In this document: positions 46,612 to 53,160 of the stretch, piece by piece
Numbering within the stretch: the stretch's first letter is position 1
How the letters are laid out: each line of letters opens with the position of its first letter
NCBI RefSeq assembly: GCF_007109225.1
Contig: NZ_VJZK01000003.1
Coordinates: 186,001 to 250,000, forward strand
Origin: Flavobacterium sp. GT3R68
GTDB taxonomy: Bacteria; Bacteroidota; Bacteroidia; Flavobacteriales; Flavobacteriaceae
Length of the DNA: 64,000 bases
Direction of reading: 5' to 3'
Notes under the pieces: model-generated
Told to the model about the DNA's origin: nothing
The model's database searches: none
The model's input: only the letters and a program-made list of their open reading frames with translations
Translations under genes and position numbers: made by a program

Positions 46612-47685
46612 ATGAACAGATTACAATCCAAACTTGAAAAAATAGGGCGTAATCACATCACTACAGCGAAAGCCGCCGGACTGCGCTATGTAGCAAATTC
46701 TAATAATGGATTTTCCAGGGAAAGAACAAAATGGGGTTTCAAATTTGTTGATGAAAACAAGAATGATCTTCAGGAAGAGTATTTGGAACGCATTCAGAAA
46801 TTAGTAATTCCGCCCGCGTGGGAAAACGTCTGGATTTCACCTTATGACAACGGACATTTACAGGCCACCGGTATCGATACCAAAGGAAGAAAACAATACC
46901 TCTACCACCCTAGCTGGAATACCATCCGGAACCAATCCAAATTTTACCGGTTATTGGATTTCGCCAAAGTTTTACCATCAATACGCAAACAGGTTGAAAA
47001 GGATCTCCACAAAAAAGGGCTGCCTTATACTAAAGTGGTGGCTTTAGTGGTGAAACTTTTAGAAATTACCAATATCCGAGTTGGGAATGATGCTTACAAA
47101 AAATTATATGGTTCTTTTGGCTTGACCACATTACAGGACAAACATGTAAAAGCTGAGAAATCTAGTATCTACTTTGATTTTGTGGGCAAAAAAGGAATTA
47201 AACACCGAATTAGTTTAAAAAGCAAGCGACTGGTTAATCTTGTAAAAAAATGCAAAGACATCCCGGGTCAGGATTTATTCCAATATTATGATGATAATGG
47301 AGAGAGCCACGCCATTGGCTCAGCCGATATCAATAATTACCTGAAAGAAGTCACCAACCAAGATTTTACCGCCAAAGATTTTAGGGTATGGGCTGGAAGT
47401 GTCAATGCCTTTTGTGCGTTCCTGGATTCCAAATGCCCCGAAAATATTACCGAATGCAAACGCAAAATAGTGGAAGTATTAGATACCGTATCGTCGAAAT
47501 TGGGTAATACCAGAACGGTTTGCAAAAAATATTATATTCACCCCACTGTAATCAACTCTTACGAAAAAGGTTCTATCTGGAACTACAAAAGTAAAAGTAA
47601 AAGTAAAAGTACTAAATTTTCACCGGAAGAATTCGCATTAATCAAACTGTTAGAAAAAGAGACGGTTTCCGGATTTTCATCGTAA
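46612..47685 (+). CDS. DNA topoisomerase IB (poxvirus/eukaryote-like)
   Basis: A 357-aa type IB topoisomerase that relaxes supercoils by nicking one strand through a 3'-phosphotyrosine. The N-terminal domain (GLRYVANSNNGFSRER to PPAWENVWISPYDNGHLQATG) and the catalytic domain are present: IRVGNDAYKK, FRVWAGSVNA (usually FRTWAGT) and LGNTRTVCKKYYIHP with the nucleophile Tyr308. A hexanucleotide microsatellite near the end encodes a Lys-Ser tetrad. Bacterial homologues are sporadic and thought to have spread by transfer. It overlaps no other gene and follows the small protein gene in an operon. Confidence 0.93.
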   Translation: MNRLQSKLEKIGRNHITTAKAAGLRYVANSNNGFSRERTKWGFKFVDENKNDLQEEYLERIQKLVIPPAWENVWISPYDNGHLQATGIDTKGRKQYLYHPSWNTIRNQSKFYRLLDFAKVLPSIRKQVEKDLHKKGLPYTKVVALVVKLLEITNIRVGNDAYKKLYGSFGLTTLQDKHVKAEKSSIYFDFVGKKGIKHRISLKSKRLVNLVKKCKDIPGQDLFQYYDDNGESHAIGSADINNYLKEVTNQDFTAKDFRVWAGSVNAFCAFLDSKCPENITECKRKIVEVLDTVSSKLGNTRTVCKKYYIHPTVINSYEKGSIWNYKSKSKSKSTKFSPEEFALIKLLEKETVSGFSS

Positions 47686-47802: not shown

Positions 47803-48888
47803 ATGGAACAGTTTGTCGTTTCGGCCCGTAAATATCGTCCTCAAACATTTAAAGATGTTGTGGGACAGTTGGCTATTACGAACACTTTACTTAATGCCAT
47901 AGAAACGAATCATCTTGCTTCTGCCCTGCTTTTTACAGGTCCGCGTGGTGTAGGTAAAACGACGTGCGCGCGTATTTTAGCCCGTAAAATCAACCAGCCC
48001 GGTTATGATGATCCCAATGAGGATTTTGCTTTCAATGTATTTGAATTGGATGCGGCTTCTAACAACTCTGTGGATGACATCCGTAACCTGATTGACCAGG
48101 TTCGTATTCCGCCACAAACGGGTAAATTTAAAGTCTATATTATTGACGAGGTCCACATGTTATCTTCGGCAGCCTTTAATGCTTTTCTGAAAACATTGGA
48201 AGAGCCGCCAAAACATGCCATTTTCATTTTGGCTACGACCGAAAAACATAAAATCATTCCGACCATTTTATCCCGTTGCCAGATTTTTGATTTCAAAAGA
48301 ATCACGGTAAAAGATGCAAAGGAACATTTAGCCGAAGTAGCACAAAGTCAAGGTGTTATTTGTGAAGACGATGCATTACATATTATTGCGCAAAAAGCAG
48401 ATGGAGCGATGCGTGATGCGCTGTCGATTTTTGACAGGGTAGTTTCGTATTGTGGCAATAACCTGACGCGTCAGGCTGTGACTGAAAACCTTAATGTTTT
48501 AGATTATGAAACCTATATTACGGTAACCGATTTAATTTTGGAGAATAAAATTCCTGAAATTTTAATGGCCTATAATGATATTCTTTCGAAAGGTTTTGAC
48601 GGACATCATTTTGTTGCCGGATTAGCTTCTCATTTTAGGGATTTATTGGTTTGTAAAACTCCTTCCACCTTATCATTATTGGAAGCCGGTGAACAGGCCC
48701 AACTATTATATGCAACCCAATCCCAAAAAACATCTCAGGAGTTTTTGCTGAAAGGAATTGAAATTGCCAATGATTGTGATTTGAAATATAAAGTAAGTCA
48801 AAACCAGCGATTACTCGTCGAACTTTGCCTAATGCAGTTAGCCTCTATCACTTTTGATGGAGAAAAAAAAAAGTTGACGCCTATATAA
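47803..48888 (+). CDS. dnaX: DNA polymerase III gamma/tau subunit, frame-0 (short) product
   Basis: A 361-aa AAA+ clamp-loader protein. Zinc-less or reduced Cys pattern aside, it shows YRPQTFKDVVGQ, Walker A GPRGVGKTTCARIL, Walker B IDEVHMLSSAAFNAFLKTLEEPP, sensor 1 ATTEKHKIIPTILSRCQ and sensor 2 GAMRDALSIFDR, and domain III to about residue 350. Frame 0 ends in TAA at 48886-48888, a few codons after ten consecutive A residues (48863-48872). The continuation of DnaX lies in the -1 frame to 49517 (a 571-aa tau-like product). This short form would be gamma-like. Whether it is made in cells, or whether one A is missing from the sequence, cannot be decided here. Start ATG fits homologues. Confidence 0.88.
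   Translation: MEQFVVSARKYRPQTFKDVVGQLAITNTLLNAIETNHLASALLFTGPRGVGKTTCARILARKINQPGYDDPNEDFAFNVFELDAASNNSVDDIRNLIDQVRIPPQTGKFKVYIIDEVHMLSSAAFNAFLKTLEEPPKHAIFILATTEKHKIIPTILSRCQIFDFKRITVKDAKEHLAEVAQSQGVICEDDALHIIAQKADGAMRDALSIFDRVVSYCGNNLTRQAVTENLNVLDYETYITVTDLILENKIPEILMAYNDILSKGFDGHHFVAGLASHFRDLLVCKTPSTLSLLEAGEQAQLLYATQSQKTSQEFLLKGIEIANDCDLKYKVSQNQRLLVELCLMQLASITFDGEKKKLTPI
48863..48873 (+). other. dnaX: Putative dnaX slippage site (A10 followed by G)
   Basis: Ten A residues then G. In frame 0 the last codons are AAA (48868) and AAG (48871), so the heptamer A AAA AAG at 48867-48873 is in the classical -1 slippery phase, as in E. coli dnaX. A run this long is also a transcriptional slippage site, as in Thermus dnaX. 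I saw no strong stem-loop after it. Confidence 0.6.
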
Positions 48889-49517
48889 TCCCTCCTACTT
48901 ATTTTAGAAAAAACGATTATTCAATTGTGGTGGAAACCAAACCAATTGAATCAATTCCTGTTGTTGAAAATCTGTCAAATTCCGTTGTAAAAGTTTCTGA
49001 ACCAGTAGCTATTGAAACTCCTACAGTTCCAAAAATCCCTGTTTCGAATTCGACTGAAGTAAAAGTTTCGGCTCTGTCATTGGCCAGTATCCGTGCCAAA
49101 AGGGAACTTCAGGAAACAAGTAAATTGCTTACAAAAGAGGAAACACATCTCCCTGCTGAAGACTTTACCGAAACCGATATGTTATTGCAATGGAATAAAT
49201 ATGCTCAGCGTTTAGGGGATAAAGGACATAAAATCATGGAATCTTTGCTGTTGATAAACGATCCCGTTTTGAAAGGAACAGCTATCACATTGGAATTACC
49301 AAATGAAGGTTCTAAAATTGATTTTGAAACAGAAAAGCACGGTTTGTTAGGTCATTTGCGAAGCCACCTGCACAATCATAAGATCACCATCGAAGTTATT
49401 GTCAATGAAGCTGTTGAAACCAAGCAAGCTTTTACGACACAGGAAAAATACAATCGTTTGTGTGAAAAGAATCCAAATTTAGAAATTTTGAGAAAGACGT
49501 TTGATTTGGACATTTAA
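48873..49517 (+). CDS. dnaX: dnaX tau-specific C-terminal part (-1 frame)
   Basis: This frame has no normal start of its own (only a GTG at 48927). Read from the slippage site it gives 214 residues beginning VDAYIIPPTYFRK, a continuation expected for DnaX after domain III, then a Pro/Val/Glu-rich linker (about 48920-49060). A folded C-terminal domain follows (FTETDMLLQWNKYAQRLGDKGHKIMESLLL), as in other Bacteroidota DnaX proteins; it is the part that would contact polymerase and helicase. Joined with frame 0 at codon 357 the product is 571 aa. The stop is 4 bp from the convergent TMEM175 gene. Confidence 0.8.
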   Translation, partial: VDAYIIPPTYFRKNDYSIVVETKPIESIPVVENLSNSVVKVSEPVAIETPTVPKIPVSNSTEVKVSALSLASIRAKRELQETSKLLTKEETHLPAEDFTETDMLLQWNKYAQRLGDKGHKIMESLLLINDPVLKGTAITLELPNEGSKIDFETEKHGLLGHLRSHLHNHKITIEVIVNEAVETKQAFTTQEKYNRLCEKNPNLEILRKTFDLDI

Positions 49518-49521
49518 CAAA

Positions 49522-50103
49522 TTATTCCTTTTCTGCACTTATTGTTCTTTCAATCCTTTTATCCGGAACAAGCCAAATCAACGCTACTAAAATATACATA
49601 GCCCCGGAAACCCATCCATTATAGAATGAAAATGCGATGCCGGTTAAATATAAAATAGGTGAAATTTTTCCTTTTATATCCTTACCTAAAGCTTTAGCCA
49701 AGATATTATTTTCCTTGCTGGCAGTAACCTGATATTGCAAAATCGTGTAGGCGATGGCGGCCATAAAAAGTACAATACCATATAAAGTCATCGTGGCTTT
49801 TGCAAAATGATTTTCTCCCATCCAGCCAGTCGTAATAGGAACTAAAGACAGCCAAAAAAGCAAATGAAGATTGGCCCAAAGGATTTTTCCATTTATTTTT
49901 GAGGCGCTCTGCAGCATATGATGATGATTATTCCAATAAATTCCGAGGTAGATGAAACTTAAAACATAACTCAAGAAAATAGGATATAATTTTAGAAGTG
50001 CATCGAAAGTATCTCCTTCAGGAACTTTAATTTCCAAAACCATAATGGTGATGATTATGGCCAAAACGCCATCACTAAATGCCTCCAAGCGCGTTTTATT
50101 CAT
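49522..50103 (-). CDS. TMEM175/DUF1211 family membrane protein (possible K+ channel)
   Basis: A 193-aa protein with about six transmembrane helices. The family signature is the start RLEAFSDGVLAIIITIMVLEI (FSDG motif in helix 1), which lines the pore in TMEM175 channels. Bacterial TMEM175 proteins form leak K+ channels as tetramers with a single repeat per subunit, as here. It is the last gene of the polyphosphate operon, 10 bp after the Ppx/GppA gene. The DUF1211 assignment is firm; K+ conduction is inferred. Confidence 0.88.
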   Translation of the reverse strand: MNKTRLEAFSDGVLAIIITIMVLEIKVPEGDTFDALLKLYPIFLSYVLSFIYLGIYWNNHHHMLQSASKINGKILWANLHLLFWLSLVPITTGWMGENHFAKATMTLYGIVLFMAAIAYTILQYQVTASKENNILAKALGKDIKGKISPILYLTGIAFSFYNGWVSGAMYILVALIWLVPDKRIERTISAEKE

Positions 50104-50113
50104 TTATTAAAAT

Positions 50114-51004
50114 TTAAATTTTCCCGTAATACAATGCTTTTACAATTCCGTCCGAAAGTCCAATTTTTGGAACATAAATATGTCTGGCGCCACTCCATTT
50201 CATTGCGTTTAGATAGACGCGAATGGCTGGTATGATTACGTCGGCACGGTCAACGTTTAGTCCCAATTCGGTAATTCGTTGTTCGTAAGTAAGCGAATTC
50301 AAAAATGCATATTGCGAATTCATATAAATATAGGACAACGGCTTTTCTTGTGTTTTGCCCGACATCTTAAAGATTTTATTGATGTTACCACCAGAACCAA
50401 TTAAAGTAATCTGGTCATAATCGGCTGTATTGGTCCGAATCCATTTTTCAATTTCATTCCATACAATTTCATTCACCACCTCATTCAGCAGTCGAACGGT
50501 TCCGGCTTTGAAGGATTTTGACGCAATCATTTTTCCGTTTGAAAACAATGAGAATTCGGTACTCCCTCCACCAACATCCACATATAGATAGGTCTGATCC
50601 GTTTTTAATAGATAATGTAAATCGGTTGAAGCAATAATGGCGGCTTCTTTTTTACCGTCAATGATCTCAATTTTTATATCGGATTTTTTCTTGACAATTT
50701 CCACTACTTCCTTACCGTTGTAGGCTTCCCTCATGGCTGAAGTGGCGCAGGCCATATATTTTTCGACCTTATGCACTTTCATCAAAAGCTTGAAAGCTTT
50801 CATCGCATCGACCATTCGTTCAATGTTTTCTTCCGATATTTCACCAACAGTAAACGCATCCTGACCCAAACGGATTGGCACCCGAACCAGAGCGCTCTTG
50901 CTAAACTGCGTTTCTTTGCCTTCTTCCTCTATAATATTGGCAACAAGGAGCCGCATCGCATTGGAACCGATATCTATTGCCGCATATTTTTTTATTGAAA
51001 TCAT
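50114..51004 (-). CDS. ppx: Ppx/GppA family exopolyphosphatase
   Basis: A 296-aa ASKHA-fold phosphatase that removes terminal phosphates from polyphosphate (and possibly from pppGpp). The phosphate loops are visible: AAIDIGSNAMRLLV at the start and YVDVGGGSTEFSLF, with GSGGNINKI. It consists only of the N-terminal catalytic domain (300-aa class), lacking the HD-like C-terminal domain of E. coli Ppx. It lies 41 bp after ppk1, so synthesis and degradation of polyphosphate are encoded in one operon. Confidence 0.93.
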   Translation of the reverse strand: MISIKKYAAIDIGSNAMRLLVANIIEEEGKETQFSKSALVRVPIRLGQDAFTVGEISEENIERMVDAMKAFKLLMKVHKVEKYMACATSAMREAYNGKEVVEIVKKKSDIKIEIIDGKKEAAIIASTDLHYLLKTDQTYLYVDVGGGSTEFSLFSNGKMIASKSFKAGTVRLLNEVVNEIVWNEIEKWIRTNTADYDQITLIGSGGNINKIFKMSGKTQEKPLSYIYMNSQYAFLNSLTYEQRITELGLNVDRADVIIPAIRVYLNAMKWSGARHIYVPKIGLSDGIVKALYYGKI

Positions 51005-51045
51005 CCTTTGATTTATCCGTTGAACGGTTTTATATATTTAATAAT

Positions 51046-53160
51046 TTATAGATGTTCCGTAATTACGTCCAGTTTATCCAGATAGTAATTATACATTTCG
51101 AGTTGGGCCCTGAATACTTGATCTTTGCCTTGTGCCTTATATTTATTGTCTAATTTTTCGGAATGCCATCTGGCTTTAACATTTCCTTTCCAGCCGATAT
51201 CGAAAGAATCAATCAGTTCTTTTTTGATGTCCTTATCGTAAATCGGGCAGGTCACTTCTACCCTTCCGTCAATGTTTCGAGTCATAAAATCAGCTGAAGA
51301 TATAAATACTTCCGGATCACCTCCATTTCCAAAAATGTAAACTCTGGAATGTTCCAAGAAATTATCGACAATACTGATGGCTTCAATATTTTCACTCATT
51401 CCTTTTAGTCCAGGTATTAACGAACATATACCACGTATTTGCAACTGAATTTTGACACCCGCTTTACTGGCATCATATAATTTATCAATGATTTGAAAAT
51501 CGGATAGACTGTTCATTTTTAACTTTATAAATGCTTCCTTTCCTAAGATGGCATTCGTTATTTCGCGATCGATTAATCTATAAAATCGGGATCGTGTATA
51601 ATGCGGGGAAACAATCAAATGTTTGTACCGGTGCACTCTATAATTCACATCAAAGAATTCAAAAATTTTGGAAACATCCCTCAATATCTGCTGATGGCTG
51701 GTAAAAAGAGTAACATCCGTATACACTTTTCCGGTAGCTTCATTAAAATTTCCTGTAGAGATTAATCCGTATCGTTTTAATTTCCCTTCTTCAATTCTTT
51801 CGATGAGACATATTTTACTATGTACTTTAAGGCCTTTTATCCCAAAAATAAGTTCTATCCCTTCCGTCTGCATTTGCTCCGCATAAGAAATATTGCTCGC
51901 CTCATCAAAACGGGCCTGAAGTTCGATTTGTACTGTAACTTTTTTTCCATTTTTGGCGGCGTTAATCAATGAACTGATAACCTGCGAATTTTTGGCCAAA
52001 CGATATAAAGTGATTTTTATAGCGGTAACCTTAGGATCAAGTGCCGCTTCTCTCAGGAATTTAATAATATATGAAAATGACTGATATGGCGCATTCACCA
52101 GATAATCTTTGTGGGCAATTTTGTTCAGGATACTTCCTTCAAGGCTTAATCCTTCCACTGGTAGCGGAATTTTTTGCTTGTAAACCAGATCATATCTTCC
52201 TAAATTCGGGAAATCCATATAATCACGTCTGTTATGATATCTTCCGCCCGGAATAATACTATCGGAAGCATCAATTCCCATATTGGCAAGGAAAAATTTC
52301 AGGGTATCTTTTCCAATAGACTGATCGTACACAAAGCGCACCGGTTCCCCGATTCGCCTATCCTTCACGCTGGTGGCAATCTTTTGCAACATACTCTTAC
52401 TCATGTCACTATCAATATCCAATTGGGCGTCACGGGTAATTTTTATCATGTGTGCCGTCACACTTTTATAATCAAAAATATTGAAAATACTGGACAGGTT
52501 ATACCGGATTACATCATCCAGAAGAATGATATATTGTTTATCTTTACTGGGGGGAAGTACTACGAACCGGTTAATGGTTTTTGGAATTTCGATAACTGCA
52601 TAACGTACTTCCGGCTTTTGTTTTACCAAACCTAACAACTTGGCTTTTTCATCGGCTTTCATTACCAGTTTTACAGCGAGATACCCCGAAGTGTCTTTCA
52701 ACAAAGGAAATTCCGCCAGATCGTTCAATATAATGGTAACTAATGCAGGACTCACCTTTTGGATAAAAAAATCTTTGATGAAATTTTCCTGTTCTTTTGA
52801 AACTTCATTTTCATTGATTATAAAAATATTTTCCTCTTCCAGTTTGTTTTCGATAATATTTAAAATCCGCAAACTTTCCGATTGCTGCTGAATTACAATC
52901 TCAGTAATATCTTTTACCAACTGCTTGGCGCTGACTCCTCCAAGAACTTTCTCTCCCGAGACACCAGACAAACTTAATCGTCGGATCGCGGCAAAACGGA
53001 CTCTGAAAAACTCATCTAAATTATTGGAAAAAATGCCCAGAAAACGGAACCGGTCTAATAAAGGCACATTTTCGTCGGCTGCTTCCTGTAAAACCCTGGC
53101 ATTAAATGCTAGCCAGCTTTTTTCTCTATCTATATATCTATAATCTCTTCCTTCGTTCAT
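51046..53160 (-). CDS. ppk1: Polyphosphate kinase 1
   Basis: A 704-aa enzyme that polymerises the gamma-phosphate of ATP into polyphosphate. Domain order fits: N domain (YIDREKSWLAFNARVLQEA), head domain, and two C-terminal phospholipase-D-like domains. The autophosphorylated His is H447 in KVHSKICLI, followed by YGLISTGNFNEATGKVYTD; a second conserved His is in EHSRVYIFGNGG. Its start overlaps the SixA-like gene's end by 4 bp, showing coupling. Polyphosphate serves as energy and phosphate store and stress factor. Confidence 0.97.
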   Translation of the reverse strand: MNEGRDYRYIDREKSWLAFNARVLQEAADENVPLLDRFRFLGIFSNNLDEFFRVRFAAIRRLSLSGVSGEKVLGGVSAKQLVKDITEIVIQQQSESLRILNIIENKLEEENIFIINENEVSKEQENFIKDFFIQKVSPALVTIILNDLAEFPLLKDTSGYLAVKLVMKADEKAKLLGLVKQKPEVRYAVIEIPKTINRFVVLPPSKDKQYIILLDDVIRYNLSSIFNIFDYKSVTAHMIKITRDAQLDIDSDMSKSMLQKIATSVKDRRIGEPVRFVYDQSIGKDTLKFFLANMGIDASDSIIPGGRYHNRRDYMDFPNLGRYDLVYKQKIPLPVEGLSLEGSILNKIAHKDYLVNAPYQSFSYIIKFLREAALDPKVTAIKITLYRLAKNSQVISSLINAAKNGKKVTVQIELQARFDEASNISYAEQMQTEGIELIFGIKGLKVHSKICLIERIEEGKLKRYGLISTGNFNEATGKVYTDVTLFTSHQQILRDVSKIFEFFDVNYRVHRYKHLIVSPHYTRSRFYRLIDREITNAILGKEAFIKLKMNSLSDFQIIDKLYDASKAGVKIQLQIRGICSLIPGLKGMSENIEAISIVDNFLEHSRVYIFGNGGDPEVFISSADFMTRNIDGRVEVTCPIYDKDIKKELIDSFDIGWKGNVKARWHSEKLDNKYKAQGKDQVFRAQLEMYNYYLDKLDVITEHL

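Follow-up and report, generated by a model that had tools for sequence, protein, structure and literature searches.

Flavobacterium sp. GT3R68 carries a dnaX gene in which ten A's stand between an open frame for the clamp-loader ATPase and a tau-like tail in another frame. We investigated whether this arrangement reflects a miscounted homopolymer, a broken gene, or a site at which one gene is recoded into two products.

Anatomy of the dnaX junction

Within the window (the whole 64,000-nt stretch of DNA that was analysed), tau is not encoded in one open frame (Table 1). Frame 0 of dnaX ends with GAA AAA AAA AAG TTG ACG CCT ATA TAA, the TAA lying 13 nt past the ten-A run. The tau frame, read from position 48870 as K-VDAYIIPPTYFRK..., is open one base back until the stop at 49517. 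Both non-tau frames meet a stop soon after the run (TGA at 48875, TAA at 48886), and the translated length follows the number of A's: 571 aa with 11 and 570 aa with 8, 357 or 358 aa with 9 or 12, and 361 or 362 aa with 10 or 13.

Table 1. Features at the dnaX junction, with positions counted from the first nucleotide of the window
Feature	Position	Strand	Evidence
dnaX frame 0, AAA+ clamp-loader domains I-III, gamma-like, 361 aa	47803..48888	+	Translation, Pfam, NCBI models, solved chains
GGAG directly 5′ of the A run (codons GGA GAA), possible weak Shine-Dalgarno-like element or merely coding sequence	48859..48862	+	Sequence
Candidate slip site, exactly ten A's	48863..48872	+	Sequence; 9 to 13 A's at the same place in 328/329 class loci
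Heptamer A AAA AAG, in the phase of frame 0, where a ribosome could shift −1	48867..48873	+	Sequence
Tau-specific C-terminal region, shifted frame	48870..49517	+	Translation, NF011531 match, coding constraint
TGA that immediately closes the remaining frame (9 or 12 A's, 357/358 aa)	48875..48877	+	Sequence
TAA closing frame 0 (10 or 13 A's, 361/362 aa)	48886..48888	+	Sequence

Both halves of the gene match NF011531, the DnaX family model of NCBI, the first over profile positions 1-369 and the second over 423-613 of 614 (E = 3.8e-24 for the tau tail). The first half also matches TIGR02397 as well as PF13177, PF22608, and PF12169 in Pfam (the last just over its cut-off), which together cover the ATPase, the lid, and domain III; the tau tail gave no match in Pfam. 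The solved chains nearest to the first half are those of DNA polymerase III gamma and tau, presumably the E. coli proteins. The gene thus has the AAA+ ATPase, lid, and domain III of DnaX together with the tau-specific C-terminal region of one family model. A first-pass annotation made from the letters of the window had placed an in-phase A AAA AAG within a ten-A run, taken frame 0 as a complete clamp-loader part with its stop at 48888, read the −1 frame as a continuing DnaX C-terminal region, and given product lengths of 361 and 571 aa; the run, the heptamer, both frames, their family matches, and both lengths agree with what we found.

The closest named relatives of the first half are F. psychrotolerans, F. 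luteum, and others, at 94-95% identity. The gene upstream of dnaX (46612-47685) is topoisomerase-IB-like, an ordinary neighbour, and downstream on the minus strand (49522-53160) lie a small membrane protein, a Ppx/GppA-like phosphatase, and a polyphosphate kinase-like gene; these names come from reading the translations.

Retention of the A run in the genus and the class

We searched 299 genomes of the genus with the first half of dnaX, and 293 had a match. The open frame was short (360-424 aa) in 267, long (490-614 aa) in 16, and a fragment (<360 aa) in 10. All 42 single-contig assemblies with a match had the short frame (361-409 aa). We read 33 of these 42; 31 had ten A's and the tail in the −1 frame, and two had the tail in the +1 frame (one with ten A's, one with nine). 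The first-pass annotation had warned that one A might have been missed in the homopolymer, and the single-contig assemblies answer that caution. A miscount of the homopolymer as the source of the split is already refuted at the level of the genus.

We then tabulated 171 distinct genus loci in detail, chosen to take in every intact-looking member and those that diverge most, so that the following ratios lean to odd cases: the tail was in the −1 frame in 151, in the +1 frame in 4, and in frame in 16, and the run had ten A's in 162, eleven in 6, twelve in 2, and nine in 1. Ten A's and a −1 split occurred together in 149 of the 171. Exactly ten A's were also kept by 12 of the 16 intact genes, indicating that the frame was opened by changes beside the run and not by its length. 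The 80 named loci overlap other genomes surveyed and are not independent of them; 79 were tabulated (L420 was unparsed), with 67 split and 12 intact.

The run extends well beyond the genus. The class-level set comprises 329 distinct loci (one duplicate, L207, removed), drawn from samples of the group and not from all its genomes. Outside the genus, 92 loci of the family, mostly one per genus, were intact in 78 cases, split (−1) in 10, split (+1) in 3, and unset in 1. The corresponding numbers were 19, 20, 2, and 1 for 42 loci from other families of the order, and 24 further loci of the class had 15 intact, 8 split (−1), and 1 unset. In total, 189 genes need a −1 shift or one added A and nine need the opposite direction (genus 4, family 3, order 2). 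In 328 of the 329 loci the clamp-loader part ends with a run of 9-13 A's, in split and intact genes alike and in all three codon phases. Its length is ten in 290, eleven in 19, nine in 12, twelve in 5, thirteen in 2, and seven in 1, and never eight; the next base is G in 216, T in 88, and C in 24 of the 328. Intact relatives without the run, which the first-pass annotation had named as contrary evidence, were sought, and 127 of the 128 intact class-level loci keep at least nine A's, the remaining one having seven. A typical intact gene of the family reads GAA AAA AAA AAT AGC, in which one added A brings TAG at once. Beyond the class, the 24 phylum loci examined (tail frame set in 18) divide into 14 with 9-10 A's and 10 whose longest run is at most six.

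A FastTree tree was built from 326 loci (the class-level loci minus three without a set tail frame, with the phylum loci left out). The split or intact state changes on it at least 30 times, and the run is kept in 325 of the loci. The count is approximate because the tree is a quick one and some draft assemblies may carry homopolymer errors. Counted within single groups, the changes number 9 in the genus, 12 in the family, 6 in the order, and 2 in the class.

Such a run is far beyond chance at the junction. Elsewhere in 353 loci, runs of nine or more A's occur five times in 581 kb (one in 347,877 nt over the upstream 330 codons, four in 233,290 nt downstream), and it is at a length of nine that selection against A/T runs is described for a large share of bacteria (PMC1088944). 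Lysine codon choice was compared in 244 genus and family genes without gaps. At nine conserved lysine columns AAG took 455 of 2186 codons (21%; 9-31% per column), and the A run was unbroken for at least nine in all 244 genes. Furthermore, both non-tau frames stop within 10 codons past the run in 99.4% of genus loci, against 55% and 68% at control positions. The same closure was found in the family (97.8% and 100%), the order (97.6% and 100%), and the class (91% and 100%); control positions in the same tails gave 42-69% across all groups. The tau tail of the window, compared with 53 split relatives (from L002-L061), had pN < pS in 53 of 53 pairs and a median dN/dS of 0.16 (32 pairs with finite dS), so the tail is under selection as a protein in the shifted frame.

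These data show the anatomy, the conservation, and the coding constraint of the site. By every comparative test made here, the split in dnaX is real and under selection. A slip site held at about ten A's in nearly all sampled members of the class while the frame flips speaks strongly, on comparative grounds, for both products being wanted. The proposal of the first-pass annotation, that one gene may make a gamma-like and a tau-like product by slippage, gains support from the frame-independent conservation of the run, the closed off-frames, and the purifying selection on the tail.

Candidate mechanisms at the A run

We consider it probable that dnaX of the window undergoes programmed recoding, in which RNA polymerase slips on the ten A's and a gamma-like protein and tau are made from one gene. 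Slippage would yield mRNAs with varying numbers of A's. The unslipped mRNA with ten A's, and those with 9, 12, or 13, would give the gamma-like protein of 357-362 aa, and mRNA with 11 A's (one added), or with 8, would give tau of 570-571 aa. Gamma would then be the default product and tau would need a slip, whereas in Thermus thermophilus tau has the open frame. The ribosome may contribute through a −1 shift on A AAA AAG, and the two could act as a mixture. The slip in transcription, its frequency, and the presence of both proteins in the cell are inferred.

We favor slippage in transcription because the run is held at nine or more A's while six A's and a G already make the ribosomal heptamer, because the run is indifferent to codon phase and to the next base, because nine split genes need the opposite shift, which is impossible for a −1 ribosomal shift, and because no fold was found downstream. 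The last point refers to stem-loops, not pseudoknots, in the 75 nt past the run; none was detected, with z = −1.1 for the window and a genus mean z of −0.16 vs. −0.40 for the control (up to 60 of the 151 split genus loci were folded). The nine genes of opposite direction could partly be homopolymer errors, and the excess of 189 over nine is compatible with both a +1 A insertion and a −1 ribosomal shift.

Tau might instead be made by programmed −1 ribosomal frameshifting on A AAA AAG, as in E. coli with the roles reversed and with the long run incidental. We regard this as unlikely, although several features fit it: split genes are nearly all of the −1 kind, the heptamer is in phase in the window and retained in 141 of the 151 split (−1) genus loci, its AAG giving the most slippery form for the ribosome, and 138 of 171 genus loci, the window included, as well as 67 of 92 family loci have GGAG right before the run. 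The anticodon is UUU in each of the three tRNA-Lys genes found, as in E. coli, which is likewise compatible with a ribosomal shift; the tRNA-Lys set, however, does not decide between the mechanisms, and since 33 of 42 tRNAs were resolved, a second tRNA-Lys is possible among the other nine. Besides the length of the run, the nine genes of opposite direction, and the lack of a detected stem-loop, the distribution of these features argues against ribosomal frameshifting as the source of tau. Outside the genus, the split (−1) loci of the family, order, and class number 38, and only 6 of them have the in-phase A_AAA_AAG; GGAG adjoins the run in 1 of 42 order loci and 0 of 23 class loci, groups that also have split genes. 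GGAG stands 4 nt before the heptamer, closer than the spacing of about 10 nt of the Shine-Dalgarno-like stimulator in E. coli dnaX, and a Shine-Dalgarno-like tetramer (GGAG, AGGA, GAGG, or AGGG) lies 5-25 nt upstream of the run in 1 of 171 genus loci. Of the likeness to E. coli gamma/tau frameshifting drawn in the first-pass annotation, the phase of the heptamer stands. The frames, however, have opposite roles, the search for a stem-loop found none, and conservation of the heptamer ends with the genus. The ribosomes of Bacteroidia are reported to have an occluded anti-Shine-Dalgarno and generally to ignore Shine-Dalgarno sequences; prfB frameshifting, which uses a Shine-Dalgarno-like sequence, is reported to be common in the same class (PMC8710568).

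Two further explanations are highly improbable. Under phase variation, replication slippage would change the length of the run in DNA and turn tau on or off between cells, but every cell is expected to require tau. Long A runs are indeed described as prone to replication slippage (PMC1088944), but the run is almost constant in the genus (exactly ten A's in 162 of 171 loci) and most intact genes keep ten A's. Similarly, we give very little credence to a truncated gene, whether gamma is the sole product or translation starts anew after the stop to give the C-terminal part as its own protein. Frame 0 alone does give a complete clamp-loader ATPase part, but the coding constraint on the tau frame opposes both versions, and the second is further opposed by the absence of a conserved start codon after the stop in the 151 split (−1) genus loci, where ATG occurs within 15 codons past the run in 0 and within 40 codons in 10, GTG in 0 and 18, and TTG in 4 and 25. 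Truncation, reinitiation, and phase variation were rejected on the constraint in the tail, the lack of a conserved start, and the near-constant run length. A homopolymer miscounted by one in sequencing or assembly, with dnaX really one open frame, is scarcely credible: homopolymers are error-prone and the genome is a 3.06-Mb draft in 43 contigs, but the ten A's with a −1 split and the short frame of the single-contig assemblies recur throughout the genus as given above.

Returning to slippage by RNA polymerase, we lean, with less assurance than for the window gene itself, to a wider proposal for the class. Its dnaX may have depended on transcriptional slippage since the common ancestor, with an open frame nearly free to drift, a default product that switched between gamma and tau 30 times or more, and selection confined to the A run, the closure of the two off-frames, and the tau tail. 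The open frame in DNA would be almost free to drift because slippage delivers every frame. If so, dnaX in effect tolerates one-base insertions and deletions beside the run.

Described systems and observations in further groups

Antonov et al. 2013 (PMC3711429) described dnaX genes of two ORFs with a −1 relation at the DNA level, 17 genes of 12 genera, nine of them with exactly ten A's; transcriptional slippage was inferred, with tau needing recoding, and this reversed arrangement is repeated in a review (PMC5009743). The window gene is of the same type, with two adjacent ORFs, a −1 relation at the DNA level, and ten A's at the junction, and so belongs to a kind already described in 2013. The dnaX section of that paper names only three Chlorobi, whereas the window gene is from Flavobacterium; the string "flavobacter" is absent from its main text, and Flavobacterium may or may not be among its ten-A species. 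Intact relatives that keep the run were found here, and none is described in the dnaX section and related passages of that paper. Among the open-access matches listed, no title on dnaX frameshifting in Flavobacterium or Bacteroidetes appeared beyond PMC3711429 and the reviews, and nothing was found on a run kept throughout the class while the default product flips repeatedly. The point added here is that the run is kept through the frame flips, a natural experiment around a fixed slip site.

In Thermus thermophilus, transcriptional slippage on an A run of dnaX yields gamma and tau (Larsen et al. 2000, as given in PMC5009743 and PMC1088944). The window gene resembles it in having a homopolymer before the tau tail (nine A's there, ten here), nearby stops in the other frames, and the prospect of gamma and tau from one gene, but differs in that tau is the open frame in Thermus and slippage makes gamma, whereas gamma is the open frame in the window. 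The arrangement of Thermus, with tau open, also occurs in the family of the window gene, where 78 of 92 loci are intact. Like E. coli dnaX, the window gene has an in-phase A AAA AAG where the ATPase part gives way to the tau tail, with a single gene for gamma and tau. In E. coli, however, frame 0 encodes tau and the shift gives gamma, six A's take the place of ten, and the stimulator lies farther upstream than the GGAG directly before the run; the stem-loop has no counterpart found in the window gene (PMC5009743). Shigella mxiE, an unrelated gene, is similar in that a base added to a homopolymer in transcription joins two ORFs into a longer product (PMC1088944).

The role of gamma beside tau was for a long time disputed (PMC5009743). 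In the related split and intact strains the ratio of the products, the mechanism, and the need for gamma are measurable. Our survey also suggests that automatic gene calls may often end at about 360 aa and miss the tau tail.

Short dnaX frames were seen in other groups as well. Three reduced genomes of 0.6 Mb from one genus in the order (G539, G608, and G531) have dnaX frames of 371, 366, and 370 aa, and their sisters have frames of about 476-539 aa. Outside the class, the dnaX frames of three loci in one family (L299-L301 in G630, G655, and G673; family code f28) measure 400-442 aa and contain ten A's at residue ~391; the tail frame of these loci is unset, and the slip system may thus reach beyond the class. 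Every genome listed for another family (code f4) has a dnaX frame of 361-374 aa, so that the split form seems to have become fixed in a second entire family. In most of the loci read from that family, the run reads AAA AAA AAA AGT and not GAA AAA AAA AAG.
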